A stretch of 64,000 nt of DNA from contig NZ_JAKCFI010000009.1 in assembly GCF_021412625.1 (NCBI RefSeq), forward strand, positions 186,001 to 250,000, written 5' to 3'. The translations under genes and the position numbers were made by a program. The notes beneath the pieces were generated by a model, which saw only the letters and a list, made by a program, of their open reading frames with translations, was not told where the DNA came from and did not search any database. Positions 16,717 through 37,800 of the stretch are shown here, one piece after another (position 1 is the first letter of the stretch; each line of letters begins with the position of its first letter). The DNA comes from Myxococcus stipitatus. Lineage in GTDB: Bacteria; Myxococcota; Myxococcia; Myxococcales; Myxococcaceae.

Positions 16717-16911
16717 GTGGAGGGCTCCCGCCCATGGGGGTGCTGGGCGTTTGCCTCCATTTTCTCAGGGGCTGGGCGAAAGTTGCGTCCCAGGTGAGCG
16801 GATGTGCGTTTTTCATTCCACCGGGAGTCCCGAAGCACGGGAAGAAGGCTGGAACCTCCTGGAATGACGGGTGTCTGTGGGCCGGCGCCGCGACATCTGG
16901 CGGGAGGGATG

Positions 16912-18696: not shown

Positions 18697-19020
18697 CGCG
18701 CGCTCTCCTCGCCCGGAGGTCCAGGTCCACCAAGGTGGGCTCCAGGCGCGCATCAGGGGAGGTGGGCATACAGCCAGGGGCCCGTCCGCTCGCGCGCGCC
18801 AGGCGTCCCAGGGGGCATCTCCTTCCGGACAGCCGGAAGAGACTGCGGAGAGCCCCCTGTAAAAAGGAAAGGGCTGCCCCCATAAGCACCCCGCCCCTGC
18901 GATGCAAATGCGCGCATTCACTTGGGAACGCATCAGGCGCCACGTGGCATGCGCATTGCGAAGGAGCCTGCCGTGCCGCGACGAGGCGGCTCCCAACGTC
19001 CCCCTTCCCCGAGAGACGCC
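18697..19020. other. intergenic region between DUF1360 gene and sigma factor gene
   Basis: 324 bp of divergent control region. It contains a 7-bp hairpin (CTTCCGG 18822-18828 with CCGGAAG 18833-18839), an A-rich patch near 18859, and the sigma-54-like promoter described separately. I see no further gene. Confidence 0.6.
18945..18959 (+). promoter_or_regulatory. candidate sigma-54 promoter upstream of the sigma-32-type gene
   Basis: TGGCATG-CGCA-TTGC keeps the invariant GG (-24) and GC (-12) with the exact 10-bp spacing and differs from the TGGCACG-N4-TTGC consensus at one base. Predicted transcription would begin near 18971, 50 nt before the ATG at 19021. Sigma-54 control of alternative sigma genes is plausible in myxobacteria, which have many sigma-54 activators. 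This is a motif match only. Confidence 0.5.
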
Positions 19021-19905
19021 ATGCAGGACTCCTCCCACACCTCTTCCCCGGACTCCCTCTCCACGTACCTCTCGGAGATCAACCAGTACCCGTTGCTGAC
19101 GCAGCCGGCGGAGCAGGAGCTGTCGCGCCGCTACCGCAAGGGCGACCTGATGGCGGGCCACCAGCTGGTGACGTCCAACCTGCGCTTCGTGGTGAAGGTG
19201 GCCTACGAGTACCGCTCCTACGGCCTGAAGATGTCGGACCTCATCCAGGAGGCGAACATCGGCCTGATGAAGGCCGTGCAGAAGTTCGACCCGGACAAGG
19301 GCATCCGCCTCATCTCCTACGCGGTGTGGTGGATTCGCGCGTACATCCAGAACTGCATCCTGCGCAACTGGAGCCTGGTGAAGCTGGGCACGACGCAGGC
19401 GCAGCGCCGGCTGTTCTTCAGCCTGGCCCGAACGCGCCGCGAGCTGGAGCGCATGGGCGCCGGTGACGCCAGCCTCGTCAACGCGGAGGAGATTGCCCGG
19501 AAGCTCAACGTGAAGGCCTCCGAGGTGCGCGAGATGGAGCAGCGCATGGGCGGCAGGGACCTGTCGCTCGACGCGCCCGTGGGCGAGGACGGCGACGCCA
19601 CCCACCTGGACTTCGTCGAGTCCTCCTCCGCCTCCCACGAGGACGAGGTCGCGGACCGGCAGCAGGCGGGCCTCACCCGCGACCTGGTGCAGCGCGCCCT
19701 GCGCCGGCTGGACCCGCGCGAGCGCTTCATCATCGAGCACCGGGTGATGGGCGACTCGGAGATGACGCTCAGCGAGCTGGGTGACCACTTCGGCTTCTCC
19801 CGCGAGCGCGCCCGTCAGCTCGAGATTCGCGCCAAGGACAAGCTCAAGGCCGAGCTGACCCTGCTCATGTCCGACGCGGGCCTGGACGCCGCCGCGCTCT
19901 CCTGA
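19021..19905 (+). CDS. RNA polymerase sigma factor, sigma-32 (RpoH/SigB/SigC) group
   Basis: A 294-aa group 3 sigma factor. Region 1.2 is [15 protein letters not shown]. Region 2 holds [17 protein letters not shown] and the core-binding/-10 segment [18 protein letters not shown], then [20 protein letters not shown]. Region 4 ends in the helix-turn-helix [19 protein letters not shown]. The RpoH-box-like segment [15 protein letters not shown] is present. Myxococcus has several paralogues (SigB and SigC in development, RpoH in heat shock); I cannot tell which one this is. The ATG at 19021 opens the conserved N-terminus. A sigma-54-like promoter lies upstream and a strong terminator downstream. 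Confidence 0.93.
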
Positions 19906-21070: not shown

Positions 21071-22521
21071 AGCTCCCCCGGCGCGCCCACGAGCGGCTCC
21101 TCCAGGGCCCCACGCAGCTGCGTCGCTCGGACCTGCCGCGGCCCCTGGGCACCGAACCCGCCGCCGCGACGACGAACGAGGAGCAGCGTCCCCGCCGCTA
21201 TACCTACGAGCGGCTGGTGACGGTGGACCTGCGCCACACGTACTTCAACGCCTCCGACGGCCAGTGCCGCGGGCTCGTGCCCGCCCCCACCGCCGCGACC
21301 CGGGAGTGGATGCGGGATCTGGGGCTGCTCTTCCTCCAGGACGGCGCCAGCTTCTCGGTGCTGTACGACTTCAACCGCCGCGAACAGCTCCTCGCCGCGC
21401 TCGCGCGTCGACAGGGCGAGCGCCAGTGGTCCTGGCTGTCGTTCGTGCTCGTCCCCGACACGCCCTACTTCGTCAACTTCACGGACCTGCCCAGCGACTT
21501 CCAGCCGCTCGAGACGAACCTCTACTTCGACAACACCCAGGCGCACTTCGAGGGCTTTCCACCCGAGCCCTCGGACCAGGGGCTGCACTGCGCGGGCACC
21601 CCGCCCTCCGTCGCGCTGCTCAACCCCGGCGCGCAGGTGACGGCCGCCAGCGGCCTGGAGGTGGTGAAGGCCCAGCTCCAGGTGGTGCTCGTCAGCGACC
21701 AGGTCGACCGCGTCGTCGTCGACGATCTCGCGGGCGACCGGGTGCTCTGCAAGCCCTGCAGCATCCCCGTCGGCCTCCTCGCCGAACAGGCGCCCTACCT
21801 CATCACCTGCGGCCAGGTCCTCGACTACCGCGCGCACCACGAGCCGCCCGAACTGGAGGAGCGCCTGGGCCGGGTGGCCTACCTGGACCTGGTCTCCCTG
21901 CCGGAGGGCCGCTACGTCGTCCGCCAGCAGGACCGCGAGGGCCACACGCTGCACTCGGACACCGTCCTCTACACCCAGGCCTATCCGACGCCGCTGTGCT
22001 TCGTGAACCTGCTGCTGGTCAAGCCCGACGACTCTCTTTGCGGCCTGTATCCCGTGTGCGACCTAGAGCACGGGCCCGCCCTGGCGCGCATCGTCCCGCT
22101 CCAGCTCCAGCTGCGCTTCGAGCGACGCCAGACGCGCTGGGTCTACTACGCCATCCCTCCCAAGGGCGTGCGCTACGCCACGCTCGACCTCGCCGACACG
22201 GCGACGTCCGGCGCCGTCACCTTCTCCGGCCCCACCCCCGTGCGCGTGGCCGGCGCGGGCGAGGCCTACTGCTTCATCGCCGACTCGCGCCTCCCCCTCG
22301 AGGAGGTCTCCACCTTCCGCTTCGAGCTGAAGGGAGCGCGGGAGGCCGGCGCTCCGGAGCGCACGCTGATGGCCCGCGTGCCCGTGGCCAGCCCCGCGCT
22401 CGTGCTCCCGCGCGAGGGCGCGCCGCCAGGGCACCCCATCGCCACCCGCCCCCGTCCGGGGCCCCCGACAGACGGCCCCGCCGAGCAGCACGACTACTCG
22501 GACATCTACCTCAACCTCTGA
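21067..22521 (+). CDS. eCIS-associated protein of unknown function
   Basis: A 484-aa soluble protein without signal or membrane helix. The N-terminal segment RYTYERLVTVDLRHTYFNASDGQCRGLVPAPT and repeated beta-strand patterns suggest a multi-domain beta-sandwich. The last 40 residues are Pro/Gly-rich, ending HDYSDIYLNL. Its ATG lies in the 4-bp overlap with the cap gene and the sheath gene follows 32 nt later, so it is very likely made with the particle. I do not recognise an Afp/PVC counterpart. Candidates are an assembly factor, a tail-cap accessory or an unrecognised fibre-like part. Confidence 0.8.
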   Translation: MKLPRRAHERLLQGPTQLRRSDLPRPLGTEPAAATTNEEQRPRRYTYERLVTVDLRHTYFNASDGQCRGLVPAPTAATREWMRDLGLLFLQDGASFSVLYDFNRREQLLAALARRQGERQWSWLSFVLVPDTPYFVNFTDLPSDFQPLETNLYFDNTQAHFEGFPPEPSDQGLHCAGTPPSVALLNPGAQVTAASGLEVVKAQLQVVLVSDQVDRVVVDDLAGDRVLCKPCSIPVGLLAEQAPYLITCGQVLDYRAHHEPPELEERLGRVAYLDLVSLPEGRYVVRQQDREGHTLHSDTVLYTQAYPTPLCFVNLLLVKPDDSLCGLYPVCDLEHGPALARIVPLQLQLRFERRQTRWVYYAIPPKGVRYATLDLADTATSGAVTFSGPTPVRVAGAGEAYCFIADSRLPLEEVSTFRFELKGAREAGAPERTLMARVPVASPALVLPREGAPPGHPIATRPRPGPPTDGPAEQHDYSDIYLNL

Positions 22522-22553
22522 ACCCCGCAGCCCACCCGGAAGAGAGAAGCCCG

Positions 22554-24104
22554 ATGCCCATCAGACCCGCTCGAAAGACCCCTGGCGTCTATGTCACGGA
22601 GTTGGACGCCTTCCCGCCCTCCATCGTCGGTATCCAGACCGCCGTTCCCGCCTTCATCGGCTACACCCAGACGGCCACGCTCAGCGGCAAGCCCATCCTC
22701 AACAAGCCGGTGCGCATCAGCTCGCTGGCGGACTACGAGCAGATCTTCGGCGGCGCGCCGGACCCCAAGTTCATCCTCACGGAGGTCACCGACACCAACA
22801 AGCAGCAGTCCGGCGACTACGACTTCAAGATCTTCGACACCGCCGCCGCCGTCTGGAAGTACTACGACCTGGTGCCCGCGACGGGCACGAAGTTCGTCCT
22901 CTACAACAGCCTGCGGCTGTTCTACGCGAACGGCGGCGGCACCGCGTACATCGTCTCCGTGGGCGACTACAGCGGCTCGCTGGACGCCGCCAAGCTGGAG
23001 GAGGGCCTGACCATCATCTCCGAGCAGGTGGGCCCCACCATGCTCGTCGTGCCGGACGCGGTGAACCTGCCCACGTCCTCCGACTACGGGAAGATCGCCA
23101 CCGCCATGCTCAACCAGTGCGGCACGCTCAAGGACCGCGTCGCGGTGCTGGACGTGTACGGCGGCGGCACCGTCACCCAGGCCACCCTGGAGACCGTGGA
23201 GACGGACTTCCGCACCCTGGTGGGCAGCAAGAACCTCAACTACGGCATGGCCTACCTGCCCTTCCTGCACACCACGGTGCAGGAGGTGAGCGACTTCGAC
23301 TACACCAACATCGAGACGACGCAGCAGCTCCAGGACATCCTCAAGCTGGAGAGCGCCAACCTCTACGCGACCAACACCGCGCGCAAGAGCGCCGTGGACG
23401 CGGACATCATGAAGATTGGCACGCTCACCGACCCGGCGGAAATCCAGGCGCTCAACCAGAACCTGACCGCCGCGCTGCCGCTGCTGACGGACATGCTGCG
23501 CATCATCTCCCGCAAGGACGACGTGCTGCCCGCCAGCGGCGCCATGGCGGGCGTCTACACGTGGAACGACTCCAACCGGGGCGTGTGGAACGCGCCGGCC
23601 AACGTCAGCCTCGCCAGCGTCACCAGCACCACGCTCAAGCTCAACAACACGCAGCAGGAGAACCTCAACGTCCCGGTGGACGGCAAGGCCATCAACGCCC
23701 TGCGCGAATTCGTGGGCCGGGGCACCGTGGTCTGGGGCGCGCGCACGCTCGACGGCAACAGCAACGACTGGCGCTACATCCAGGTGCGCCGCACGCTCGT
23801 CTACGTGGAGCAGTCCATCAAGAGCGCGCTGGACCGCTTCGTGTTCGCCGCCAACGACGGCAACACCTGGGCGTCCGTGGTCTCCATGGTGTCCAGCTTC
23901 CTCCAGGGGCTGTGGTCCCAGGGGGGCCTGCTGGGCGCCACCGCGTCGGACGCGTTCAGCGTGGAGTGCGGCCTGGGCAGCACCATGACGGCCCAGGACG
24001 TGCTGGAGGGCTACATGGTCGTGCAGGTCACCCTGCAGATGATCCGCCCGGCCGAATTCATCGAGCTGACCTTCAAGCAGAAGATGGAAGGCGCCAGCGC
24101 CTGA
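22554..24104 (+). CDS. eCIS contractile sheath protein (Afp2-4/Pvc2-4-like)
   Basis: A 516-aa phage-tail-sheath family protein. It begins with the conserved RKTPGVYVTELDAFPPSIVGI arm followed by TAVPAFIGYT, and ends with the C-terminal domain WRYIQVRRTLVYVEQSIK, then LRPxE-like MIRPAEFIELTFKQK. These subunits form the outer cylinder whose contraction drives the inner tube through the target membrane. Only one sheath gene is present, whereas Afp and PVC have three. The ATG at 22554 follows a GAGAG ribosome site. Confidence 0.95.
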   Translation: MPIRPARKTPGVYVTELDAFPPSIVGIQTAVPAFIGYTQTATLSGKPILNKPVRISSLADYEQIFGGAPDPKFILTEVTDTNKQQSGDYDFKIFDTAAAVWKYYDLVPATGTKFVLYNSLRLFYANGGGTAYIVSVGDYSGSLDAAKLEEGLTIISEQVGPTMLVVPDAVNLPTSSDYGKIATAMLNQCGTLKDRVAVLDVYGGGTVTQATLETVETDFRTLVGSKNLNYGMAYLPFLHTTVQEVSDFDYTNIETTQQLQDILKLESANLYATNTARKSAVDADIMKIGTLTDPAEIQALNQNLTAALPLLTDMLRIISRKDDVLPASGAMAGVYTWNDSNRGVWNAPANVSLASVTSTTLKLNNTQQENLNVPVDGKAINALREFVGRGTVVWGARTLDGNSNDWRYIQVRRTLVYVEQSIKSALDRFVFAANDGNTWASVVSMVSSFLQGLWSQGGLLGATASDAFSVECGLGSTMTAQDVLEGYMVVQVTLQMIRPAEFIELTFKQKMEGASA

Positions 24105-24169: not shown

Positions 24170-24622
24170 ATGGCAGGAGAAGTCCAGAACGACATCTGGC
24201 CGTTGCCGAAATTCTATTTCTCCGTCCAACTGGGAGACGACACGTCCGTCAGCTTCCAGGAGGTCGACGGGCTGGAGACCGAAACGCAGGTCATCGAATA
24301 CCGCCACGGCAACAGCCCCAGCTTCTATCCCATCAAGATGCCCGGCCTGGGGAAGGTGGGCAACGTGCGGCTGCGCAAGGGCATCTTCGTCAACGATGCG
24401 CGCTTCTGGGATTGGTACAACGAAATCAAGATGAACACCATCGCCCGGCGCACGGTCATCATCAGCCTGCTGGACGAGCAGGGCGCGCCGAAGATGACGT
24501 GGACGCTGAACAACGCGTGGCCCACGAAGCTGTCCGGCACGGACCTGAAGTCCGAGGGCAACGAGGTCGCGGTGGAGACGCTCGAGGTCGCCTTCGAGAC
24601 GCTGGTCGTCGCCGCGCCGTAA
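24170..24622 (+). CDS. eCIS inner tube protein (T4 gp19-like, Afp1/5-like)
   Basis: A 150-aa tube protein. The pattern WPLPKFYFSVQLGDDTSVSFQEVDGLETE, then YRHGNSP and LRKGIFVNDARFWDWYNEI, is diagnostic of the gp19/CIS tube family. Hexamers stack to form the rigid inner tube. It follows the sheath gene by 65 bp with AGGAACACC as ribosome site. The second copy at 24648 is divergent in sequence and probably sits at the baseplate end. Confidence 0.95.
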   Translation: MAGEVQNDIWPLPKFYFSVQLGDDTSVSFQEVDGLETETQVIEYRHGNSPSFYPIKMPGLGKVGNVRLRKGIFVNDARFWDWYNEIKMNTIARRTVIISLLDEQGAPKMTWTLNNAWPTKLSGTDLKSEGNEVAVETLEVAFETLVVAAP

Positions 24623-24647: not shown

Positions 24648-25178
24648 ATGTCCGAACCGTACTATCCGCCTCCGGCGTTCTACTTCAGCGTGTCCCTGCT
24701 CGGCTCCGCGACGCTGCTCGCGGCGGCGAGCGACCTGGACGCCTCCTTCCAGGAGGTCTCCGGCATCGAGGCGCACTGGGAGACGGAGGACGTCGCCGAG
24801 GGGGGAGAGAACCGCTTCACCCACAAGCTGCCCAAGCCCGCGAAGTACTCCAACCTGGTGCTCAAGCGGGGCGTGGTGACGCGGGACTCGTTCCTGGCGG
24901 AGTGGTTCGGCCAGAGCGTGGGCTCGGGGCTGTCGCTGCCGTTGTTGCCACAGAACATCCTCGTCCTGCTGCTCAACGAGGAGGGGCTGCCGCTGGTGGC
25001 CTGGGGCTTCGTCAACGCCTGGCCCCTGAAGTGGGAGGTGTCCCCCATGCGCTCGCAGGAGAACCGCATCCTCACCGAGTCGCTGGAGCTGTCCTACAAC
25101 TACTTCGAGCGCGTGAACCTGGGCAGCCCGGCCTCCGTGGCCGTGAAGCTGGCCCAGCTCACCGCCCGGCTGACGTGA
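24648..25178 (+). CDS. second eCIS tube protein, baseplate-proximal initiator
   Basis: A 176-aa paralogue of the tube protein: PPAFYFSVSLLG, FQEVSGIEAHWETEDVAEGG, KLPKPAKYSNLVLKRGVV and WPLKWEVSPM. In Afp and PVC the divergent extra tube copies form the layer between hub and main tube, so this is probably the initiator ring. The C-terminus has an extra 20-residue helix (SPASVAVKLAQLTARL). It lies 25 bp after the first tube gene in the same operon. Confidence 0.9.
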   Translation: MSEPYYPPPAFYFSVSLLGSATLLAAASDLDASFQEVSGIEAHWETEDVAEGGENRFTHKLPKPAKYSNLVLKRGVVTRDSFLAEWFGQSVGSGLSLPLLPQNILVLLLNEEGLPLVAWGFVNAWPLKWEVSPMRSQENRILTESLELSYNYFERVNLGSPASVAVKLAQLTARLT

Positions 25179-25191
25179 GGCGAAGCGTCCC

Positions 25192-25383
25192 ATGCCCCTG
25201 GAGGTGAACGAGATTGGCATCCAGCTGCGCGTGCGCGACGGCGCGGACGCGTCCTCGTCCGACAAGCCGAGCACGCCCGTGGGTGACTGCGGCTGCTCCG
25301 ACGAGAAGAAGGAGCGCCAGGCGATGGTGGAGGAGTGCCTGCGCCGCGTCCTCCAGGTCCTCAGGGCCCGACAGGAGCGCTAG
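25192..25383 (+). CDS. small eCIS protein, DUF5908 (Afp6/Pvc6-like)
   Basis: A 63-aa protein starting MPLEVNEIGIQLRV, the N-terminal signature of DUF5908 found in most eCIS clusters. A central CGCSDEKKE segment is followed by a basic helix (ECLRRVLQVLRARQE). Its structural role is not settled; the family always lies between tube and LysM hub genes. There are 13 nt to the preceding gene and 2 nt to the next. Confidence 0.8.
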   Translation: MPLEVNEIGIQLRVRDGADASSSDKPSTPVGDCGCSDEKKERQAMVEECLRRVLQVLRARQER

Positions 25384-25385
25384 CG

Positions 25386-26087
25386 ATGGGGTTCTCCGGC
25401 AGCCTCGAGAAGATGATGGTCATCGCCTACCAGAAGCCGGACTTCACGTCGGAGGTGGGCCGCTACGTCGTGTACATCAATCCGGCGTCGTACTCGCACA
25501 CGTTCTGCGTGAAGTACAACGACGTGCAGGCGCAGGGCAGCAGCGGCGGCTCGTCGGAGTTCAACCGCATCCCCCCCGACACCGTGGAGCTGGAGCTGGT
25601 GTTCGACGGCACCGGCGTGGTGCCCAGCCCGCTGCCCGGGCTGATGCCCTTCACCGAGGACGGCATCGCCGACCAGGTGGCGAAGTTCAAGACCCTGGTC
25701 TTCACCTACAACGGCAACATCCACAGCCCCAACTACCTCAAGCTGTCGTGGGGCTCGTTCCTGTTCAAGTGCAAGCTGCAGAAGCTGAGCATGAACTACA
25801 CGCTCTTCAAGCCGGACGGCACGCCGCTGCGCGCCCGGGCCAAGGGCACGTTCCTCGGCTACAACGACGAGGTGGAGCTGGCGCTCAAGGCGCGCATGAG
25901 CTCCCCGGACCTGACGCACGTGCGCACGGTGCAGGCCGGGGACACGCTGCCGCTCATGTGCTACCGCATCTACGGCACCAGCGCGCCCTACCTCGACGTG
26001 GCCCGGGTGAACGAGCTGGCTGACTTCCGGCAGCTCGCCGTGGGCACGCGGCTGTTGTTCCCGCCGCTGCGGGAGACGCTGGGATGA
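25386..26087 (+). CDS. eCIS hub/LysM protein (Afp7/Pvc7-like)
   Basis: A 233-aa protein. Residues 1-175 are a tube-like beta domain (SSEFNRIPPDTVELELVFDGTG and FKTLVFTYNGNIHSPNYLKLSWG). Residues 180-230 are a LysM domain (HVRTVQAGDTLPLMCYRIYG, ending VGTRLLFPP). Homologues link the inner tube to the spike, equivalent to T4 gp53/gp48 roles. It overlaps the spike gene by 4 bp. Confidence 0.92.
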   Translation: MGFSGSLEKMMVIAYQKPDFTSEVGRYVVYINPASYSHTFCVKYNDVQAQGSSGGSSEFNRIPPDTVELELVFDGTGVVPSPLPGLMPFTEDGIADQVAKFKTLVFTYNGNIHSPNYLKLSWGSFLFKCKLQKLSMNYTLFKPDGTPLRARAKGTFLGYNDEVELALKARMSSPDLTHVRTVQAGDTLPLMCYRIYGTSAPYLDVARVNELADFRQLAVGTRLLFPPLRETLG

Positions 26088-27883
26088 CGACGCCCTCGCC
26101 GCTGACGAACGAGGGGGCGCTGACCACCTTCGTCATCAAGTCCAACGGGGAGCGCATCCCCACCACGTGTCAGGTCGTCTCCGTGGACACGTGGCTCTCG
26201 GTCAACAAGCTGCCGCGCGCGCGCCTCGTCCTCTTCGACGGGCAGGCGTCCACCGGCACCTTCCCGCTCAGCGCCGCCGACACGTTCCTGCCCGGGGCGA
26301 AGGTGAGCATCGCCGCCGGCTACGACGGCGAGAACACCGTCGTCTTCGAGGGCGTGGTGTGCCGGCAGGGCCTGGAGATCGACACCTCGTCGGGGTCGAA
26401 GCTGGTGGTGGAGCTGACCGACGCGGCGCTGAAGATGACGCTGGAGCGCAAGAGCGGCTTCTTCGAGAAGCTGAAGGACAGCGAGCTCATCGCGAAGCTG
26501 CTGTCGCGCAACGGGCTGTCGGGCGACGTGGAGGCCACCACCGTCGTCCACGAGGAGATCCTCCAGTACTACGCCACCGACTGGGACCTGATGGTGACGC
26601 GCGCGCAGCTCAACGGCCTGCTGGTGATGGCGAACGGTGGCCGGGTGGTGGTGGCGAAGCCGGACACCTCGAAGGCGCCGGTGCTGGCGGTGAAGTACGG
26701 CGAGTCCATCCTCGACCTGCAGACGGAGATGGACGCCACCACGCAGCTGGCGTCCTCGGCCATCAAGGGCGTGAGCTGGGACGCGGAGACCCAGAAGCTG
26801 CTGGAGGCGGGGCCGGGTTCGGTCCCCGTCCAGGAGCAGGGCAACGTGACGTCCGCCAGGCTGGCGGAGGTCTTCGGCGCGAAGAAGGTCGCGCTCCAGA
26901 CGGGCGCGGAGCTCCAGACGGGCGACCTCCAGACGTGGGCGTCCGCGGAGCTGCTCAAGTCGAAGCTGTCGAAGATTCGCGGCACGGTGCGGTTCCATGG
27001 CAGCGCGCTGGCGCGCGTGGGCGCCATGCTCGAGCTGGGCGGGCTGGGGCCGCGCTTCAACGGCGTGGCCTTCATGAGCGGCGTGCACCACCACATCGAG
27101 GACGGGGTGTGGTTGACGTCCGTGGACTTCGGCCTGTCCGCGCGCTGGTACACCGCCGAGACGCAGGACATCGCCGCGCCGGACGCCTCCGGGCAGCTGC
27201 CCCCCATCAAGGGCCTGCAGACGGGCATCGTGAAGCAGGTGGCGAAGGACCCGGATGGCGAGTTCCGGGTGCTGGTGGGGCTGCCGCTGTTCCAGGAGCC
27301 GAGCCAGGGCGTCTGGGCGCGGCTGGGGACCTTCTACGCCTCCAGCGGCGTGGGCGCGTTGTTCTACCCGGAGGTGGACGACGAGGTGGTGGTGGGCTTC
27401 ATGAACGAGGACCCGCGCGCCCCCGTCATCCTCGGCGCGGTGTACGGCAAGAAGCACGCGACGCCATCTCCGCCCGCCCCTGAGAACACCCGCAAGGCCA
27501 TCGTCACCCGCAGCAAGCTGGAGCTGTCCTTCGACGACGAGAAGAAGGTCGTCTCCGTGAAAACCCCTGGTGGCCACCTGTTGGAGCTGGATGACGCCTC
27601 CGGCGCCATCACCGTCAAGGACAGCAACGGCAACAGCCTGGTGCTGGGCAAGAGCGGCGTCACGCTGGACAGCGCCAAGGACCTGAAGGTGAGCGCCAAG
27701 GGGAACGTGTCGGTGGCCGCGGGCGGGAACCTGTCGCTGGAGGCCACCGGCAACGTGACGGTGAAGGGCGTGCAGGTGACGCAGACCGCGTCGATGAAGT
27801 TCTCCGCCAGCGGAAGCACGCAGGCCGAGCTGACCTCCAGCGGCGTGCTCACCGTGCGCGGCTCGCTGGTGAAGATCAACTGA
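26084..27883 (+). CDS. eCIS spike protein, VgrG-like (Afp8/Pvc8)
   Basis: A 599-aa spike. The N-terminal gp27-like hub occupies residues 1-360. An OB-fold (GIVKQVAKDPDGEFRVLVGLP, then WARLGTFYASSGVGALFYPEVDDEVVVGF) follows at 380-470. The C-terminal triple-stranded beta-helix has short repeats such as SAKGNVSVAAGGNLSLEA up to residue 599. The trimer carries the PAAR tip encoded next. It starts in a 4-bp overlap with the LysM gene. Confidence 0.95.
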   Translation: MTTPSPLTNEGALTTFVIKSNGERIPTTCQVVSVDTWLSVNKLPRARLVLFDGQASTGTFPLSAADTFLPGAKVSIAAGYDGENTVVFEGVVCRQGLEIDTSSGSKLVVELTDAALKMTLERKSGFFEKLKDSELIAKLLSRNGLSGDVEATTVVHEEILQYYATDWDLMVTRAQLNGLLVMANGGRVVVAKPDTSKAPVLAVKYGESILDLQTEMDATTQLASSAIKGVSWDAETQKLLEAGPGSVPVQEQGNVTSARLAEVFGAKKVALQTGAELQTGDLQTWASAELLKSKLSKIRGTVRFHGSALARVGAMLELGGLGPRFNGVAFMSGVHHHIEDGVWLTSVDFGLSARWYTAETQDIAAPDASGQLPPIKGLQTGIVKQVAKDPDGEFRVLVGLPLFQEPSQGVWARLGTFYASSGVGALFYPEVDDEVVVGFMNEDPRAPVILGAVYGKKHATPSPPAPENTRKAIVTRSKLELSFDDEKKVVSVKTPGGHLLELDDASGAITVKDSNGNSLVLGKSGVTLDSAKDLKVSAKGNVSVAAGGNLSLEATGNVTVKGVQVTQTASMKFSASGSTQAELTSSGVLTVRGSLVKIN

Positions 27884-27909: not shown

Positions 27910-28212
27910 ATGCCTCCCGCCGCACGCCTCACCGACTTCCACCAGTGTCCGCTGTCCACGCCCGCGGTGCCCGCGCCCATCCCCCACGTCGGAGGGCCCA
28001 TCGCGGGGCCGGGCGCCCCCACCGTCCTCATCGGCGGGCTGCCGGCCGCCAAGGTCGGCGACGTGGCCGTCTGCGTGGGCCCTCCCGACGCCATCGCCAA
28101 GGGCTCCACCACCGTGCAGGTGATGGGGCTGCCGGCCGCGCGGCTGGGGGACAAGACGGTGCACGGCGGCACCATCCTCATGGGTCTGCCCACCGTGCAG
28201 ATTGGAGGCTGA
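27910..28212 (+). CDS. PAAR-type spike tip (Afp10/Pvc10-like)
   Basis: A 100-aa PAAR-like protein: MPPAARLTDFHQCPL at the start, repeated GLPAAKVGDVAVC and GLPAARLGDKTVHGG turns, and Cys/His ligands suited to a bound metal at the cone tip. It sharpens the VgrG-like spike and can carry fused or non-covalent effectors, though no toxin extension is fused here. It sits 26 bp after the spike gene. Confidence 0.93.
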   Translation: MPPAARLTDFHQCPLSTPAVPAPIPHVGGPIAGPGAPTVLIGGLPAAKVGDVAVCVGPPDAIAKGSTTVQVMGLPAARLGDKTVHGGTILMGLPTVQIGG

Positions 28213-28217
28213 GCCCC

Positions 28218-28643
28218 ATGGCCTCTCGGACGCCTTCATTCCTCGGGACCGGCTGGAGCTTTCCTCCCACGTTCTCCCGCGCCCTGGGCGGCGTGGCCAT
28301 GGTCAGCGACGACGTGGACATCCGCGAGAGCCTGTGGGTGCTGCTGTCCACGTCGCTCGGCGAGCGCGTCATGCTCCCCACCTACGGGTGCGAGCTGCGG
28401 CAGATGGTGTTCCGCGGCATCAACACCACGCTGACTCGGCAGCTCCAGGACTACGTCCAGCAGGCCATCCTCTACTGGGAGCCGCGCATCACCGTGGAGT
28501 CGGTGACGGTGCAACAGACGGCCTCGTTGGAGGGGCAGCTCACCATCGACATCGCCTACGTCATCACCCAGACCAACACGCGCAGCAACCTCGTCTACCC
28601 CTTCTATCTCGACCAGGGGAGCATCCCCGTCCAGGGGCCCTGA
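28218..28643 (+). CDS. baseplate protein, GPW/gp25 family (Afp9/Pvc9)
   Basis: A 141-aa gp25-like wedge protein. SFPPTFSRALGGVAMVSDDVDIRESLWVLLSTSLGERVMLPTYGC carries the family core, with the EPR-like motif ILYWEPRITVESV. It anchors the first sheath ring and links it to the wedge proteins. The ATG is 6 bp after the PAAR stop, and the next gene starts 4 bp after its stop. Confidence 0.95.
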   Translation: MASRTPSFLGTGWSFPPTFSRALGGVAMVSDDVDIRESLWVLLSTSLGERVMLPTYGCELRQMVFRGINTTLTRQLQDYVQQAILYWEPRITVESVTVQQTASLEGQLTIDIAYVITQTNTRSNLVYPFYLDQGSIPVQGP

Positions 28644-28646
28644 GCC

Positions 28647-31600
28647 ATGGCCGCTCGCGACACGAAGGTCGCCATCAACGGCGCCCCCAGCCAGTACGAC
28701 CGCTGGCTCCGCGCCCTGGAAGAAGGCCATGCGCCGGTGGATGGGCGCACGCGCTCGGAGCTGCTCGACTTCGCGCCCCGCTTCGGCGCCCTCGTCTATT
28801 TCTACGACCTGAAGGACACGCGCGACGGCGACTGGTCGGAGTTCTTCCTCGCCGACCCCCTCATGGTGCTGGCCTCCATCGACGCGCTGTCGGCCCAGGC
28901 CGTGGAGGAGCGCTTCCTGCGCGCTTCCCGCGACATGGACGCGGCGCGCACGCCCGACGCCGCCTTCCGCGCGCTGTCGGATGGCGTGGACGTCATCACC
29001 GGGCTCGCTCGTCGCTTCGACCTGTGGCTGCGTGGCGTGGGGCTGGGCGCCCAGGGCGAGGCGGGGCGGCGGCTCGGGGCGCTGCTCGCGGACTCCATCG
29101 AGGGCGCGCTGTCCATCGCGCTGCGCGCCGTGGGGAGCCTCGCGCTGGGCGCGGGGCTCCCGCAGGCCCTGGGGCGTCCCGTGAAGCTGGACCTGTCCGG
29201 GATGCTCCCGCTCTGGGGCGTGGAGCAGCTCGTGCCGGAGGCGGGGGCCTACCGGGGGACGACGAAGGAGGCGCGGGCGCGGGCGGCGTTCGGTCAGCTC
29301 GACGCCCGGATGGAGGTGTTCCTCGACGTGCTCTCCCAGGCGCAGGGGCTGACGCGCGCCATCCTCCCGGACGCGCTGGCGTCCGGGAACCACCCACCGC
29401 ACCTGGCCCTCTACATGGCCTTCGTGCAGTTGTTCCGCACCGCGCAGGACACGGTGAACACGGTGTCGGGCCGCTACGCGGACTTCTACCACCGGCGGGT
29501 GCTGCGCCTGGGTCCCGGGGGCGCCCTGCCCGACAGCACGTACCTCACGTTCGAGCTGGCCGACGACGAGGCGGTCGCGGCGTCGAGCGTGCCCCGCGAC
29601 ACCCTCTTCCCCGCGGGCAAGCGGCCGGACGGCGAGGACATCCTGTTCAGCGCGGACGGCGCGGTGGGCGTCACGCGCGCGGCGGTGGAGAGGCGGCTCG
29701 CGCTGCGCGTGCTGCGGGGCCCCCTGTACGACGCGGGCGAGGTCCCTCCTCCGAGCGACGTGCCGGTGGTGACGCGGGAGGTGCTCGCGTCGGAGATGCC
29801 GCTGGAGCCCATCGAGACGAACGCCGAGGGTGAACAGCCGCCGGATAGCGCGCGTCCGGGCTGGGCCACCTTCGGCGCGAGCGCGGTGGGCGTGACCACC
29901 ACCACCCGCACCGCCCCCGCGAGCCTGGGGTTCGCCGTCGCCTCCCGCTACCTGTTGCTGACGGGGGGCACGCGCACGGTGACGCTGAGCGTCCAGCTCT
30001 CCGCGGAGTCCTCCCAACGGCTGGCGACGCTGCTGCAAGCGCTGTCCACGGCCACGGGCGAGGATGCGCGGACGCTCTTCCTCCAGGTGCTGCGGGCGGC
30101 CTTCACGCTCCAGGTCACCCAGTCCGAGGGCTGGCTCACGGTGGAGCGCTACGACGTGCTCCTCCCCGCGCTCGCGGAAGGCGACGCGCCGGAGGTGCCC
30201 GGCTTCTCGCTGCGCTTCGAGCTGACGCCTACCGCCCCCGCCGTCGTCGCCTCGGGCGCGGGCCCCGCGCCGACGCTGCCGACCCTGCGGGCCCTCGTGA
30301 AGTCCGAGCCCGTGGAGCTGGGTGACGGTGTGACGGTGCGCCCGGTGTCGCTGCTCGACGCGGTGGACTTCGCCACGCTGGAGTTGCAGACGGACGTCTC
30401 CGACCTGACGGGCCTGCGGCTGGACAACACCGAGGGAGACATCGACCCGAGCACCCCGTGGCTGCTGTTCGGTGGCACGCCCGTGGTCGGCTCCTATCTG
30501 CGCATCCGCCACGCGGAGCTGTTCATCAAGAAGCCGGACACGCTGTGCCTCACCCTCGACTGGTTCGGGCTTCCCCAGGACGAGACGGGCTTCAGCGGCT
30601 ACTACGCGGACTACGTCATCGGCCCGGATGGGCTCCCCGCCCCCAGCCTCTTCGACAACCAGAGCTTCATGGCGGACCTGAGCGTGCTCCAGCCTGGCTC
30701 CTGGACACTCCAGCCCCTCGACTCCCAATCCTCGACGGGGACACCCACGGACGGGGGCGTCGTGAGCAGCTACCTCTTCCGCACGGATACGGACTCGACG
30801 CCCGAGCCGAAAGGCAAGCTCCTCGACAGCACGACGCTGGAGAACTTCACCCTCCAATCCAACTCACCGCCGCCCTACTACGACCCCAACGCCAGCGCGT
30901 TGGAGCTGCGGCTGACCACGCCGCCCTACGCCTTCGGCGACTCGCTCTACACCATCAACGTGCTCAACGCCGTGCTGGCGGACCTCCCCGATACCGAGGG
31001 GTGCCAGGCGAAGTGCGCGGAGGAGTGCGCCGGCAAGGAGGGTGACGATCACACGAATTGCATGAAGGAGTGTCTGGCGAAGTGCATGCAGCCGCTCACG
31101 CCGCTCAAGTACCCCAACCCGCCCTGGATGCCGCGACTCCAGAAGCTCGGCATCGACTACACGGCGAGCTGCGCGCGCGAGGAGTTGCGCTACTTCCACC
31201 TGCTGCCCTTCGACGGATACCACTGCGTCTCGCTCGACAACGCCCAACCCGTCTCGCTGCTGCCGCGATTCAAGGCCCCGGCCAATCTCTACCTGGGCTT
31301 CTCCGGTCTGGACGCCGCGCAGTCGCTCACGCTGCTGATGCGGATGAGCGGCACCTATGAAGGTTCGGGCGAACCGCCGACCGTCCGCTACGACCTGCTC
31401 ACGAGGACGGGCTGGAACGCGCTGCCCGCCACCCAGGTCCTCTCCGATTCGACGCGGGGACTCCAGGGGACCGGCATCCTCGAGCTGGGACTGCCCGCGT
31501 TCAGTTCGGCCGGCACCACCCTGTTGCCGGACACGTACCAGTGGCTGCGAGCCTCCGTCGACCGGGACGCCGACGCGTTCCCGAGGACACTCGACATCAC

Positions 31601-32393
31601 CCCGCATGCGCTGGTGGCGACGCGCCGCTCTCCCGGCGTGGACGTGGACACGCCGGTGCCCGCGGGCACCATCACCCTCTCCGTGCAGGAGCTGCCGGAC
31701 ATCGGCACCATCACCCAGCCCCTGCCTTCCTTCGGAGGCCGGCCCCCCGAGACGCCGCGCACCTTCCAGGTGCGCGCCGGAGAGCGGCTGCGCCACAAGG
31801 CCCGCGCGGTCCTGCCGTGGGACTACGAGCGGCTGGTGTTGGAGCGCTTCCCCTCCATCTGGAAGGTGTGCGCGCTGCCCGCGCAGTCGTCCGCGCCGGG
31901 CTCGGTGCTCGTCGTCGTGGTGCCCGACCGCGCGGGTACGGCGTCCTCGGACCCCACCGTGCCCCAGGTGACGTCGGACGTCCTGGAACGCATCCAGCAG
32001 TACCTCCAGGAGCGCGCCAGTCCCTTTGTCCAGTTCCAGGTCGTCAACCCCATCTACGTCCGCGTCACGGTGACGGCGCGCGTGCGCTTCCGCGACGGCG
32101 CGCAGCCGGGCGAGAACCTGGAGCGGCTCGACCGGGACCTCGTGGAGTACCTGTCCCCGTGGTACTACGACGCCGAGCGCGCCACGCGGAGCGGGCAATA
32201 CGCGTCGGAGGCGGACATCTCCGAGTTCATCCAGACGCGCCCCTACGTGTCGCTGCTGTCCTCGCTGGAGCTCCGCCATTCGCCCGAGCCGGCGGCGCTG
32301 GACTCCGACTGGTACTTCCTGACCTCCGCCCCCCACCACGACCTCGAGGACGCGAACGCACCCGCGCCGGTGTCGGTGGCCGAGGGCTACTGA
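28647..32393 (+). CDS. large baseplate wedge protein, baseplate-J-like (Afp11/Pvc11)
   Basis: A 1248-aa protein. The N-terminus has the eCIS Afp11 pattern (SELLDFAPRFGALVYFYDLKDTRDGDWSEFFLADP). The last 250 residues resemble T4 gp6/baseplate J, including WDYERLVLERFPSIWKVCALP and FVQFQVVNPIYVRVTVTARVRF. It forms the inner wedge with the next gene product. Residues 786-813 hold an unusual Cys-rich helical-hairpin segment, with two CX3CX3C blocks ten residues apart, inside an otherwise Cys-poor protein. Confidence 0.9.
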   Translation: MAARDTKVAINGAPSQYDRWLRALEEGHAPVDGRTRSELLDFAPRFGALVYFYDLKDTRDGDWSEFFLADPLMVLASIDALSAQAVEERFLRASRDMDAARTPDAAFRALSDGVDVITGLARRFDLWLRGVGLGAQGEAGRRLGALLADSIEGALSIALRAVGSLALGAGLPQALGRPVKLDLSGMLPLWGVEQLVPEAGAYRGTTKEARARAAFGQLDARMEVFLDVLSQAQGLTRAILPDALASGNHPPHLALYMAFVQLFRTAQDTVNTVSGRYADFYHRRVLRLGPGGALPDSTYLTFELADDEAVAASSVPRDTLFPAGKRPDGEDILFSADGAVGVTRAAVERRLALRVLRGPLYDAGEVPPPSDVPVVTREVLASEMPLEPIETNAEGEQPPDSARPGWATFGASAVGVTTTTRTAPASLGFAVASRYLLLTGGTRTVTLSVQLSAESSQRLATLLQALSTATGEDARTLFLQVLRAAFTLQVTQSEGWLTVERYDVLLPALAEGDAPEVPGFSLRFELTPTAPAVVASGAGPAPTLPTLRALVKSEPVELGDGVTVRPVSLLDAVDFATLELQTDVSDLTGLRLDNTEGDIDPSTPWLLFGGTPVVGSYLRIRHAELFIKKPDTLCLTLDWFGLPQDETGFSGYYADYVIGPDGLPAPSLFDNQSFMADLSVLQPGSWTLQPLDSQSSTGTPTDGGVVSSYLFRTDTDSTPEPKGKLLDSTTLENFTLQSNSPPPYYDPNASALELRLTTPPYAFGDSLYTINVLNAVLADLPDTEGCQAKCAEECAGKEGDDHTNCMKECLAKCMQPLTPLKYPNPPWMPRLQKLGIDYTASCAREELRYFHLLPFDGYHCVSLDNAQPVSLLPRFKAPANLYLGFSGLDAAQSLTLLMRMSGTYEGSGEPPTVRYDLLTRTGWNALPATQVLSDSTRGLQGTGILELGLPAFSSAGTTLLPDTYQWLRASVDRDADAFPRTLDITPHALVATRRSPGVDVDTPVPAGTITLSVQELPDIGTITQPLPSFGGRPPETPRTFQVRAGERLRHKARAVLPWDYERLVLERFPSIWKVCALPAQSSAPGSVLVVVVPDRAGTASSDPTVPQVTSDVLERIQQYLQERASPFVQFQVVNPIYVRVTVTARVRFRDGAQPGENLERLDRDLVEYLSPWYYDAERATRSGQYASEADISEFIQTRPYVSLLSSLELRHSPEPAALDSDWYFLTSAPHHDLEDANAPAPVSVAEGY

Positions 32394-32417: not shown

Positions 32418-34886
32418 ATGGCCGAGCCCGTCACCGTCACCGCCGCGCCCCCCGCGAACAAGGGCATGGACTACCTGGCCCTCAAGGAGGAGGGCACGCG
32501 GCTCATCCAGCAGCTCGCGGGCGACATCTGGACGGACTACAACGAGCACGACCCGGGCGTCACCACGCTGGAGCAGCTCTGCTACGCGCTCACGGAGCTG
32601 TCCTACCGCGCGCAGTTCCCGCTGGAGGACCTGCTGCTAGACCCGGTCACCGGCGACATCGAGCCGGAGCGGCAGGCGCTGTTCCCCGCGCTCGACATCC
32701 TCCCCTGCAACCCGGTGACGGAGCGTGACTACCGCAAGCTCCTGGTGGACCGCGTTCCCGGCGTCGCCAACGCCTGGCTGACGCCCGTGCCCCCCAGCGA
32801 GGCGGACCCGGTTCCCGGCCTCTACGACATCTGGCTCTACGCGCCCGGCGCCGACTGCTGCGCCACCGACGGGGGTTCGCCGGAGGACCTCGTCGAGGCG
32901 GCCCGGCGTGTGTATTCCCGACACCGCGCGCTGTGCGAGGACCTCCGGGACATCCGCCTGCTGGCGCCCGTCACCGCCACCGTCACCGCGGAGGTGAGCA
33001 TCGACGAGCGCCTCACCTCCGAGAGCATCCTCGCGGGGCTGTTCTTCCGTCTGGGCAACTTCCTCGCGCCCGAGCCCCGCCGCGAGTCGCTCACCGCCTT
33101 GCTCGCGGAGGGCCAGCGCACCGAGGACATCTTCGAGGGGCCGCTGATGTCCGACGGCTTCATCGCGGACGCGGAGCTGCAACCGAAGGCGACCTCCGTG
33201 TCGATTCCAGACCTCCTCCAGGTGATGGTGGAGTCCCCGGGTGTCACCAGCGCCCGCCGGGTGAGTCTGCGTCTCGGGGAGTCGGTCGCCGTCCAGCCCG
33301 ACGGGGTCGTCAACGTGCCCGTGGACCAGGTGCCCGCGCTGGACACGCGCGCGGACACGCGACGGGGCGGCTTCTCCATCCGCCTCTTCCGCAACGGCGT
33401 CGAGGTCAAGCCCAACGCCGCGCGCGTGCGGCGGGAGCTGGAGCGCCTGTGGGCCGAGCAGCGCAGGACGTACCCGCTGGGGCCGCAGTACGCCGAGATG
33501 CTCCCCATGCCGAAGGGGCAACGCCACGACTTCCGTCGCTACACGTCCATCCAGAACCAGTATCCGCTCGTCTACGGCATCAGCGCGGCGGGGCTGCCCG
33601 ACGTGGCCAACCCCATGCGAATGGCGCAGGCCCGGCAGCTCAAGGGCTACCTGCTCGTCTTCGAGCAGCTCCTCGCGGACTTCTTCGCGCAGCTCGCGCG
33701 GGTCCGCGACCTGTTCTCCACGGACCCGGCGCTGCGGCACACCTACTTCTTCCAACTGCTCACGGGGGACGTGCCGGACATCGAGCCCCTGCTCAAGCAC
33801 GCCGACGAGGGTTCACCCGGCTACGCGGCGGGCCTCGCCCAGCTCGTCGCCAGCCAGGACCCGGCCACCGAGCGACGCAACCGCTTCCTCGAGGTCCTGC
33901 TGGCGTTGTTCGCGGAGCGGCTCGACACGGATTCCATCGCCGGTGGCGCCTGGAATGGAGGCACGGAGCCGTCCGAGGAGGAGCGCCTGTTGGAGGCCAG
34001 GCTCGCGCTGCTGCAACACCTCGTGCGGGCCACGCACGACCGGGGCCGCGGCATCGACTACCTCGAGCGGCCCGGGGGCGGAAACATGGCGGGCATGGCC
34101 ATCAAGAGCCGCATCCAGCTCGGGATGGACGTGGGCGCCGCGGCGCCGCTCATCGACGTGTTGGACGAGCTGTTCATCGACATCTCCGATACGGGCACGC
34201 CCGCGCCGGAGAGTCGGGCCCTGGCCCGACACGTGGACACGCTGGAGGAGCGATTCACCGCCGTCGCGTCGCTCCCCGCGCCCGAGTCCATTCCCCCCGA
34301 GGCCTCCGTGCCCCTGCGAGCGCGCTCGGTGAGCGCCGAGTTCCTGGGGGCGGCCGGCGCGCTGGAGAACTTCCGCGTGGGCACGCTCCCGGGCGAGTCC
34401 TCCGTGTCCCTGGTGTGCAGGGCCCCCGCCACGCGCGGCTGGCACCTCGTGGGGAAGTTCTCCGGCACGGCAGGCGCGGTCGCCCGGGCCCACGCGCTCG
34501 TGGAGCAGGTACGACAGCTCAACCGCCGCCGCTCGCAGCTCTACATCGTGGAGCATGTCCTGCTGCGCTCCGCGCGCCGCCCGGGAGACGAGACCTTCCC
34601 CTACGGCTTCACGCTGACCGCGGTCATCTCCACGGCGACGAGCCAATGGAGCACAGCGGAGTATCAGTCCTTCGCGCGCGAGGTCATCCGGAGCAACGCG
34701 CCCGCCCACGTGGTGGCGGACTGTCTCTTCCTCGGCCCCACCCGCATGGCCAGCTTCGAGCGGCTCTATTGGGCCTGGCGCAACGCCCTGCGGGAGCAGG
34801 ACGAGTCGAGGATCGCCACCGCCTCCGCGCGGCTGCGGGACTTCCTCGAGGTCGCCGCGCAAGAGCCCGAGGCGGCCGACGCATGA
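32418..34886 (+). CDS. second baseplate wedge protein (Afp12/Pvc12-like)
   Basis: An 822-aa protein. The N-terminus MDYLALKEEGTRLIQQLAGDIWTDYNEHDPGVTTLEQLCYALTELSYR is characteristic of eCIS Afp12. A gp6-like VTERDYRKLLVDRVPGVANAWL segment and helical C-terminal half follow. It pairs with the Afp11-like protein in the hexagonal baseplate. AGGAGAA stands 8 nt before the ATG. The gene overlaps the tape measure by 4 bp. Confidence 0.9.
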   Translation: MAEPVTVTAAPPANKGMDYLALKEEGTRLIQQLAGDIWTDYNEHDPGVTTLEQLCYALTELSYRAQFPLEDLLLDPVTGDIEPERQALFPALDILPCNPVTERDYRKLLVDRVPGVANAWLTPVPPSEADPVPGLYDIWLYAPGADCCATDGGSPEDLVEAARRVYSRHRALCEDLRDIRLLAPVTATVTAEVSIDERLTSESILAGLFFRLGNFLAPEPRRESLTALLAEGQRTEDIFEGPLMSDGFIADAELQPKATSVSIPDLLQVMVESPGVTSARRVSLRLGESVAVQPDGVVNVPVDQVPALDTRADTRRGGFSIRLFRNGVEVKPNAARVRRELERLWAEQRRTYPLGPQYAEMLPMPKGQRHDFRRYTSIQNQYPLVYGISAAGLPDVANPMRMAQARQLKGYLLVFEQLLADFFAQLARVRDLFSTDPALRHTYFFQLLTGDVPDIEPLLKHADEGSPGYAAGLAQLVASQDPATERRNRFLEVLLALFAERLDTDSIAGGAWNGGTEPSEEERLLEARLALLQHLVRATHDRGRGIDYLERPGGGNMAGMAIKSRIQLGMDVGAAAPLIDVLDELFIDISDTGTPAPESRALARHVDTLEERFTAVASLPAPESIPPEASVPLRARSVSAEFLGAAGALENFRVGTLPGESSVSLVCRAPATRGWHLVGKFSGTAGAVARAHALVEQVRQLNRRRSQLYIVEHVLLRSARRPGDETFPYGFTLTAVISTATSQWSTAEYQSFAREVIRSNAPAHVVADCLFLGPTRMASFERLYWAWRNALREQDESRIATASARLRDFLEVAAQEPEAADA

Positions 34887-37800
34887 GCCGCTCGCATCAC
34901 CGCATCCGAAAACAGTCCCTGGTCCTGGACGTCGAGACCGAGGCCCAGGCGCGCGCGCTCCAGCCCCGGCTGAGCAGCTTCAATCGCCAGCGGCTGCTGG
35001 CCATCATCGAGCAGGTGTTCGACGCGCTGGACGTCCCCGACCTCCACGTGCGCATCGACCGGCTGGACGTGGACCTGGGGACGGTGTCATCGCACGACTT
35101 CGAGGCGGTGGTGGCGGAGCGACTGAGCCTCCGGCTGAGGGAGGTCGTGGAGCAGGCCGTGAGGGAGCGACGCGAGACGGCGGCTCACGGGGAACAGCCT
35201 CGGACCGAGGCCCAGTTCCAGTTGGAGCTGTTGGAGTACTACCTGCTCCATGGGACGCTCCCCTTCTGGGCTCCGAACGGGACGCACTTCTCCTTCGGCG
35301 CGCTGTTCGCCAGCGTGGCGCGTAGCAACCCGGAGGCGCTGGTCCGGCTGGTGGGTCGGAACGCGCGGATGGCGCAGGTCATCGAGCGACTGGTGCTCCA
35401 GCTCGACCAGACCTTGCTGGAGCGGCTCATCACGCTGCTCGAGCCCAAGCACGCCGCGCTCCTCATCGACTACATCGTCAGCCTCCAGGCCCTGCATCGC
35501 GTGGAGCCCGTGCTCCCGCTGAGCGACCAGAAGCTGTCGCGGCTGTTGTGGTCCCTGACGCTCACGTACCTGGTGCGAGACGCGGGCTCGCAGTTCAATC
35601 GCAAGAGCGCGCTCCGTCAGCTCCTGGAGGGCGTGTCGGAGAGCCAGGGCCTGGACTACACGGAGCTGGTCACCACGCTCGCGCTCGGCCTCGACCAGGT
35701 CCGTCACCAGCACCCCATCCTCTCGTCGCTGGCCGCCGTCATCGGAGAGCTGGTGCGCGAGCTGCCACCCGAGGTCTCGGAGGTGGTGGACTCCGCCCGG
35801 GAGGAGTCGCGCGAAGAGGGTTGGGACGACGAGCCCGCGAGGATGGCGGCCACCGTCCGCTATGCGTTGACCGAGGCGCTTCGCTACTACCTCCAACACG
35901 GCGTGCTGCCATGGGCGACGTCGGTTCGCACGCCCGAGTTGACGGTGGAGCGGGCGCTGTCGGTCCTGCCCGAGCTGCCGCGTTCGATGCTGCGCAGGGC
36001 GTTGTCCTGGGAGTCCACCGAGGGGTCGATGGGGGCCCTCGTCCGCGCGGTGCGGCGGATGCCAGACGCGGTGCGGACACGGCTGCTGGTGCGCTTGATG
36101 CCGCCATCGGGCGAAGCAGGGAGTCCACTGCGCTCCGCGCTCCCCGTGTTCATCGCGAGGGCCCACGACAAGCCCCTGTTCTTCGCTCGGGTCATCGCGG
36201 CCCTGTTGGACGGCGAGCCGGTGGTCCTCGATGCGCTGGCGTCCTCATCGGGTGTCACGGACTCCGAAGAGCATGCCCCCGTGTCTCCCCTGCTCGGGGA
36301 GTGGGATGCCCATGCCTTGAAGTCGCAGCTCGCGCAGCGGCTTCGCGACGAGCGGGGTCTGGGCGAGAGCCCTTCCGCGCTCGAGCTCCTGGAGGCGCTG
36401 CTGTCGCACCATCCGGAGGATGCGCGGCTGTTCCTGCTGTCGCTTCGAGGCGTGGACCGGCTGAGGACCGCGCTGGTCGACCTGAGCTCTCCCGCGTTGT
36501 TGGCGAGGATGATGGAGGTGCTACGTCCTCGCGAAGCGGGGACGATGGGCGCGCTGCGCACCGTGCTGGAGCAGCTTCCCGAGCAGGCGCTTCCCGGAGG
36601 ACGGTCGGAAGTGCGCCAGGTGCTCTTCTCCGAGTTGCTCCAGTTGGGAGAGGCGCGTCCGCTGACGTCCGCGACGTTCAGGCAGGTCCTGGCCCGCCTC
36701 TTCGGGCGCGGCGTGCCCCGGGAGGTGTGGTCCACGCTCACCGACGCCGCTTCCGAGTGGAGTCGCGTGGCCCACTTCCCCGCGAAGCACCTCGCCGCGT
36801 TCCGGGACGCGCTGGAGTCCTTCGGGCCGCGCGAGGACACCGAGCCCCCGCCCGGCCCGCAGCCGGACGGCGGGGACATGGGGGAAGGCCCGGAACAGGG
36901 TGCCGCATCTGGCGGGGCTCCGAGGGAACCGACGAGCGTCCACGAGGGACTCCTCGCAGAGGCGGGGTCTCGGCGGGCGTCGTCATGGGTCGAGGAACGA
37001 GCCGAGTTCGAACCCGGGAGCTACGGGACGACAACGAACGAAGGTGATGAGCCGGGTGCGGACACGACCGCGTCGCCCATGGACGTGGGAGTGGCGCGCG
37101 TGCCCACGACCGTGGCCTCCGTCGCTCATGAGTCCGCCGATGTGCCATCCCCGGCACAGGGGCTCTCCGCGATGCTGGGCGCGCCTCTCGCGACAACTCC
37201 GTCGAGCAACGAGACGGCCGTCACGGGTGAGGCGCGACAGCGGAAGCAGATGACTGGCTCTGTCACTGTCGACTCGAGTCGGGTGAGCCAGAATGACCTG
37301 GAGGGCATCGGCGGAGCGGCCGCCAGGGACTCGTCGACGAAGGACGTGCCTCCTAGTGAAGCGCTCCGGATGGTCTCCTCGACGCCGGTCTCCGTGCCGA
37401 GCGCCCTGACGGAGCCACGGGCCACGAGGGAGGCTCCGTCAACCACGCTGGGGCTGGGCCTCGACCAGACATCGCCGCTCGCCGCACGACCGATGGGGCC
37501 CGTGGCGTCGCCGGTCCCTGGCGAGTTCCCAAGCCCTGTAGCGGCACCGCCCGGCGATGCGAGTTCGTCGGCCATTGGCGGCGTCGGAGTGTCGCGAGCA
37601 CAGGCAGCGGATGCTGATGCGAAGCTGGGAATGATTGCGCCGTTTGCACTGCCGGGCTCCCCGGAGGACGGGGGAGGCACGTTCGGCCACACGCCGCTCC
37701 AGGGGCCTGAGCATCAGGGCACACGCGAGGCATCCGCGGGCGAGCCCTCCACACCGCGTTTCGGCCACCCCCATGTTGGAGCGGTCGAGGGCGCGCCTCG

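Follow-up and report, generated by a model that had tools for sequence, protein, structure and literature searches.

The baseplate J protein of an extracellular contractile injection system (eCIS) encoded by Myxococcus stipitatus carries a twin CX3CX3C motif that is predicted to form a helical hairpin at the opening of the spike cage. The protein, of the Alg11/Cis11/Afp11 type and 1248 residues long, is encoded at 28647..32393 (+ strand) of the window, a 64,000-nucleotide stretch of assembly GCF_021412625.1 (contig NZ_JAKCFI010000009.1, positions 186,001 to 250,000 of the forward strand). We propose that the motif is a disulfide-stapled, alpha-hairpinin-like hairpin in the cage tip loop, set after release of the particle and serving as a rigid contact element, a proposal for which we judge the chances to be evenly balanced. 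Computation supports the motif, the predicted hairpin, the domain that carries it, its modeled place at the tip, and the conservation of the cysteine framework.

The motif, CQAKCAEECAGKEGDDHTNCMKECLAKC, comprises residues 786-813 and is flanked by ...PDTEG- and -MQP.... Its pattern is CX3CX3C-X10-CX3CX3C; residue 786 begins at 31002 and residue 813 finishes at 31085 (+ strand), exactly the coordinates and triad spacing given in a first-pass annotation made from the DNA letters. That annotation had also called the protein otherwise cysteine poor, which holds: there are 10 cysteines in total, 4 of them outside the insert. When the 10 cysteines were placed at random, at least one CX3CX3C arose in only 85 of 200000 trials, while the real protein has two, ten residues apart. 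The twin motif is therefore not due to chance. The baseplate protein was the sole CX3CX3C-bearing product among 38 likely-gene open reading frames (ORFs) of the window, a crude selection by codon composition that may include some false ones. Scanning all six frames of the window turned up the whole motif at a single site, 31002-31085. Two further Myxococcus genomes (G016 and G025) have the motif at the same position.

Structure prediction with AlphaFold2 (AF2), a check that the first-pass annotation had suggested, yielded two antiparallel helices at the insert (31002..31085, + strand), residues 783-793 and 800-813, and supports its view that this eCIS baseplate protein carries a helical hairpin with two triads of cysteines. 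The model covered residues 575-854 and was built from 13 alignment rows; its mean predicted local distance difference test (pLDDT) score of 82.9 is good, and the blocks of the hairpin scored 93, 94, and 91. A larger model of residues 540-1248, of mediocre mean pLDDT (65.1), shows the same two helices, with block values of 77, 89, 89, and 72. In an antiparallel hairpin of this kind, the cysteines can pair in the nested order 786-813, 790-809, and 794-805. In the three genomes that hold the insert, 2 to 4 of its 28 residues are large and hydrophobic, and the small core that this leaves apart from the cysteines is an argument, though no proof, for disulfides or a metal.

Plant alpha-hairpinins of the six-cysteine form follow the rule CX3CX3C-X4-20-CX3CX3C (X is 10 here) and share the helix-loop-helix shape predicted here, according to the available text of PMC11591084. 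Alpha-hairpinins are small peptides, however, and no sequence relation between them and the insert is shown. Because it is a loop of a 1248-residue baseplate protein and not a small peptide, the insert is hairpinin-like and not a hairpinin. No solved chain matched a 50-residue insert peptide at E values up to 10. Pfam searches with three insert peptides gave Furin-like, TIL, Tim10, C_tripleX, ArgJ, and Ole_e_6, all under the cutoff, and NCBIfam gave no match for the insert peptide.

The identity of the host protein is supported by a match to PF04865 (Baseplate_J, gp6-like; E value of 2.3e-7, 30.8 bits versus a cutoff of 21.1) and by its solved relatives. The nearest chains by sequence are 7b5h (All3317 of the Anabaena thylakoid-anchored contractile injection system [tCIS]), which is the best match, 7aeb (Alg11 of AlgoCIS), and 9rce_A; 9qgl (PlPVC1), 6rao (Afp11), and 6j0n (Pvc11) come next, and 9gtp matches weakly. 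TIGR02243 of NCBIfam matches the whole protein below its cutoff.

The insert lies in a cage domain fragment, residues 575-854 (30369..31208, + strand), predicted to adopt a fold like that of a carbohydrate-binding module (CBM). This predicted domain fits residues 410-602 of Alg11 (VIA Z 13.3, root mean square deviation of 3.1, 191 residues aligned) and also matches 9qgl (Z 14.8) and 7b5h (Z 12.6); with CBM15, CBM86, CBM32, and other beta-sandwich domains, Z is about 6, which may reflect only a common arrangement. The predicted model thus has an extra CBM-like cage domain, and the matched part of Alg11 falls inside its domain IV (residues 278-643). As far as the accessible text of PMC8894135 goes, domain IV forms the hexagonal spike cage of AlgoCIS, with two CBM-like modules and Lys572 at the tip, and the PAAR-like Alg10 occupies the lumen of the cage tip. 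P819 of the window protein aligns with Alg11 P576 and Y822 with L581. The insert ends at residue 813, six residues before P819, and a conserved YPNPPW (residues 822-827; 31110..31127, + strand) follows the tip loop. Because the domain fits Alg11 410-602 and P819 aligns with P576, beside the tip Lys572, the insert is predicted to replace or extend the cage tip loop and so to sit at the mouth of the cage rather than inside the wedge core. This placement derives from the flanks and the fold; the letters of Alg11 at about 499-575 are in no printed alignment. By analogy with the symmetry of AlgoCIS, six copies of the hairpin would surround the cage mouth.

Alg11 (PDB 7AEB) therefore resembles the window protein in family, domain fold, and placement of the tip loop; it differs in that the available part of its description (PMC8894135) mentions no such hairpin, its letters at about 499-575 being outside the comparison. 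All3317, the Cis11 of the Anabaena tCIS (PDB 7B5H), is likewise a caged homologue, according to the accessible portion of PMC8894136, and shares the domain, whereas its own long tip loop has no cysteine in the printed alignment. Among the titles and abstract openings retrieved from the literature, which covered few subscription journals, none described such a tip hairpin.

In a genus sample of 27 genomes, 7, including the window's own (G000), have a close full-length orthologue that is 65 to 82% identical to the window protein. G000, G016, and G025 hold the insert with all six cysteines. These holders do not form one clade in the protein tree, which requires at least two changes: an early gain followed by two losses, or two gains. 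G025 shares all six cysteines with G000 and with G016 but only 7 (P = 0.005) and 8 (P = 0.008), respectively, of the 22 other insert residues. The cysteine codons of the holders differ by two synonymous TGC/TGT changes and no others. In the two distant pairs, nonsynonymous divergence (dN) is 0.39-0.40 in the insert, 0.25 in the remainder of the protein, and 0.30 in the neighboring domain 575-785. A fixed cysteine frame with a changing surface is the pattern that a stapled scaffold would show, although the numbers of sites are small.

A wider comparison of the loop used 18 aligned homologues, including 5 of the 48 plasmid records matched by the window protein, all 48 of which are less than 60% identical to it. 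The loop segment ranges from 52 to 247 residues and contains six cysteines in the three holders, four in Azospirillum thermophilum, one in Bradyrhizobium, and none in the remaining 13. The A. thermophilum homologue lies in an eCIS cluster on a plasmid (L064 6001-10188, NZ_CP029358.1). Its CAQRC (cysteines 767 and 771) and CLERC (945 and 949) flank a 183-residue stretch in the same tip loop, and random placement of the seven cysteines of this protein gave at least two CX3C in 54 of 200000 trials. The outer two rungs of the hairpin thus recur at the base of a far longer insert, whether inherited from a common ancestor or arisen convergently. When plasmids were searched with the Azospirillum protein, the matches were the protein itself and 15 distant records; no relative was found in phages or in pattern-seeded scans of IMG/VR with two queries. 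Two side observations concern the same protein family. The window protein lacks a CX11C pair near residues 716-727 that all six of the other close orthologues have, and the M. stipitatus genome (G000:C2, L040 10176-13262) encodes another Alg11-like protein, distant and about 1029 residues long, without the insert.

The cysteines could instead serve as ligands, with the thiolates of the hairpin binding Zn or Cu, whether in the particle itself or solely in its cytoplasmic precursor, which is reduced. Mitochondrial small Tims, with their twin CX3C, offer the closest precedent. They too are helix-loop-helix proteins, and when reduced they bind Zn through all four cysteines (PMC3759932, in the text available); a helix hairpin with six thiols might do the same. 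The same source, as far as it is available, has the small Tims end oxidized, with nested C1-C4 and C2-C3 bonds, and small Tims have four cysteines where the insert has six. The Pfam match of the insert to zf-Tim10_DDP lies far under the cutoff (10.9 bits versus 22.3, E value of 0.35), and the insert has no conserved histidine. We therefore regard metal binding as unlikely.

A different origin for the hairpin was suggested by a search of 61 genomes with the insert profile, which returned the 3 holders and 7 weak matches. Four of the latter (E values of 0.015 to 0.09) are small proteins with tandem CX3C-X10-CX3C hairpins; the other three (in G003, G006, and G075) showed no twin-CX3C motif in a scan of their loci. 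The tandem family (loci L078-L100) is found in 22 of the 61 genomes, 21 of them among the 27 of the genus and 1 outside it. The genome of the window has a member with two tandem hairpins (L091, G000:C3:763276-763500). By eye, the N termini of the family look like signal peptides, so that its members are apparently secreted; no Pfam match reached the cutoff for three members, nor did any NCBIfam match for two. The family and the insert share the spacing of their hairpins and their genus. The family proteins differ from the insert in being free-standing, in their signal-like N terminus, and in having two four-cysteine hairpins, while the insert adds a further, outer rung.

The insert could thus be a module taken from this apparently secreted family, or sharing ancestry with it, that keeps a putative binding role of the family. 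Alignment of the two with hhalign, cysteines included, gave a probability of 89% (E value of 2.3e-6). In a column permutation that excluded the cysteines, P was 0.002 for hairpin 1 but 0.08 for hairpin 2. Even the two hairpins of the family, set against each other, reached just 0.02, which makes this a weak test; it used 18 of 23 loci, omitting three near-copies (L092, L095, and L099) and two divergent loci (L096 and L100; G033). The sequence likeness is suggestive of a relationship between the family and the insert. Like constraints on short stapled hairpins could also produce it by convergence, however, and the profile matches are weak and the outer rung has no counterpart, so that a captured or related hairpin with such a binding role seems distinctly unlikely.

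The first-pass annotation had proposed that the hairpin locks the baseplate after release, and this was not supported. In a related scheme, disulfides of the hairpin, within or between subunits, would keep the cage mouth shut and would have to form or be reduced before firing. Such a redox gate has precedents in phage Milano (PMC10811340, in the part available) and in AlgoCIS, where, by the accessible account in PMC13314943, a C268-C1000 bond of Alg11 connects the cage to the iris and is required for firing. This bond is a trait characterized in AlgoCIS and not a definition of the family, and the pair is not conserved here: C268 aligns with G415 of the window protein, which has no cysteine beyond residue 1075. 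No cysteine column confined to the insert-bearing strains was found in seven other eCIS proteins (the two tubes, CIS_tube, VgrG, PAAR, gp25, and Alg12) in a comparison that excluded the tape measure protein and the ATPase. For this reason, intramolecular disulfides would be the most economical pairing. The even number of cysteines in a self-complementary hairpin likewise points to pairing within a single chain and, with the existence of orthologues that lack the hairpin, leaves a redox gate quite improbable. A tolerated, functionless insertion in a surface loop would accord with the variable length of that loop, with the close orthologues lacking the insert, and with the fast change of non-cysteine residues in the distant pairs, but has only a slim chance given that 6 of 6 cysteines are kept against 7 or 8 of 22 other residues (with the close pair at P = 0.10) and that a twin CX3C occurs in Azospirillum as well.

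Several results weigh against a disulfide-stapled contact hairpin. AF2 ignores oxidation. Only three holders are known, and between the closest of them, G000 and G016, 14 of the 22 other residues are also common, so that the excess of shared cysteines is not significant (P = 0.10). In this pair, dN of the insert (0.165) is no higher than that of the neighboring domain (0.179), with the rest of the protein at 0.118. The net charge of the insert is -2, -2, and +3 in the holders; since it is not conserved, no constant binding surface is evident. The other four of the seven close orthologues (G003, G004, G005, and G012) have a short stretch and no cysteine in the loop, and the cysteine conservation check suggested in the first-pass annotation accordingly came out divided, with all six kept in three orthologues and none in four. 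The absence of the insert from these four indicates that the machine itself can do without it.

In general, eCIS particles are assembled in the cytoplasm and would become oxidized after release. On the stapled-hairpin proposal, the insert would be a small autonomous helical hairpin, like a six-cysteine alpha-hairpinin or an extended twin-CX3C hairpin, in a particle built in the reduced state, and oxidation of the three rungs after lysis would staple it. Six copies, one per wedge, would encircle the PAAR tip at the spike cage mouth, and the ring might present a rigid, protease-resistant contact surface toward the target envelope. The hairpin would then be a lineage-specific elaboration of the cage tip. 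The requirement of a wedge-protein disulfide for firing of AlgoCIS (PMC13314943, same partial account) lends support to this proposal.

The gene for the baseplate protein sits between the gp25 and Alg12 homologues of an eCIS cluster that also holds an AAA gene (ATPase); the cluster genes given below with coordinates are on the + strand. The sheath is encoded in an ORF at 21264..24104 (PF17482 and PF04984), the N-terminal part of which is readthrough of upstream DNA; an alignment of seven orthologues places the true start at MPIRPARKTPGVYV. A sheath extension peculiar to the holders was considered and rejected, as it is this readthrough. Two gp19-like tail tube proteins follow at 24170..24622 (PF06841, E value of 1.2e-44) and 24648..25178 (PF06841, 9e-37), and then a CIS_tube protein (25335..26087; PF19266, 6.5e-50), a VgrG-like central spike (26084..27883; PF04717, 1.6e-20), and a PAAR spike tip (27910..28212; PF05488, 2.1e-22). 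The ORF with the gp25-like sheath initiator (27945..28643; PF04965, 1.7e-25, residues 123-211) begins inside the PAAR gene, so that the true start probably lies further downstream. Beyond the baseplate gene lie an Alg12-like wedge protein (32418..34886), named by position without a Pfam match and with an orthologue in six of six other clusters, and the tape measure protein (34883..40513; PF19268 CIS_TMP, 1.3e-117).

Other genes of the window lie near or beyond the cluster. Upstream of the sheath lies a gene for a sigma-70-type factor (18922-19905), which is 90 to 98% identical and likewise placed in six of six other Myxococcus clusters; its product is a possible regulator of the eCIS. A thioredoxin-fold protein with tetratricopeptide repeats (16804-18261) is encoded near the cluster. 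Such a thioredoxin-like gene also lies near the insert-lacking clusters of G003 and G004, whereas the flanks fetched for the four remaining genomes, some perhaps too short, did not show it, so that it does not track with the insert. A 1382-residue protein (44048-48196) has 97 cysteines, twelve DUF4215 matches, and Ig-like domains.

The spike cage has been described recently; according to the available part of PMC13314943, opening of the AlgoCIS cage is proposed to involve a second, uncharacterized receptor. We see a slight chance that the hairpin is a bacterial alpha-hairpinin counterpart, apparently secreted in Myxococcus as tandem hairpins and captured by the eCIS, whose six copies at the cage mouth form an oxidation-set secondary-receptor or gating element and supply the second contact that has been proposed in AlgoCIS. 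The caged type of Alg11 baseplate protein was known already; what is new is one with a probably stapled tip. The finding further hints that such machines may make wider use of disulfides that form once the particle is released, beyond C268-C1000 of AlgoCIS and phage Milano. As a compact, optional, probably stapled module at the cage mouth that some species have and close sisters lack, the hairpin offers a natural variant pair for probing the cage tip; it may assist the syringe in making contact with the target.
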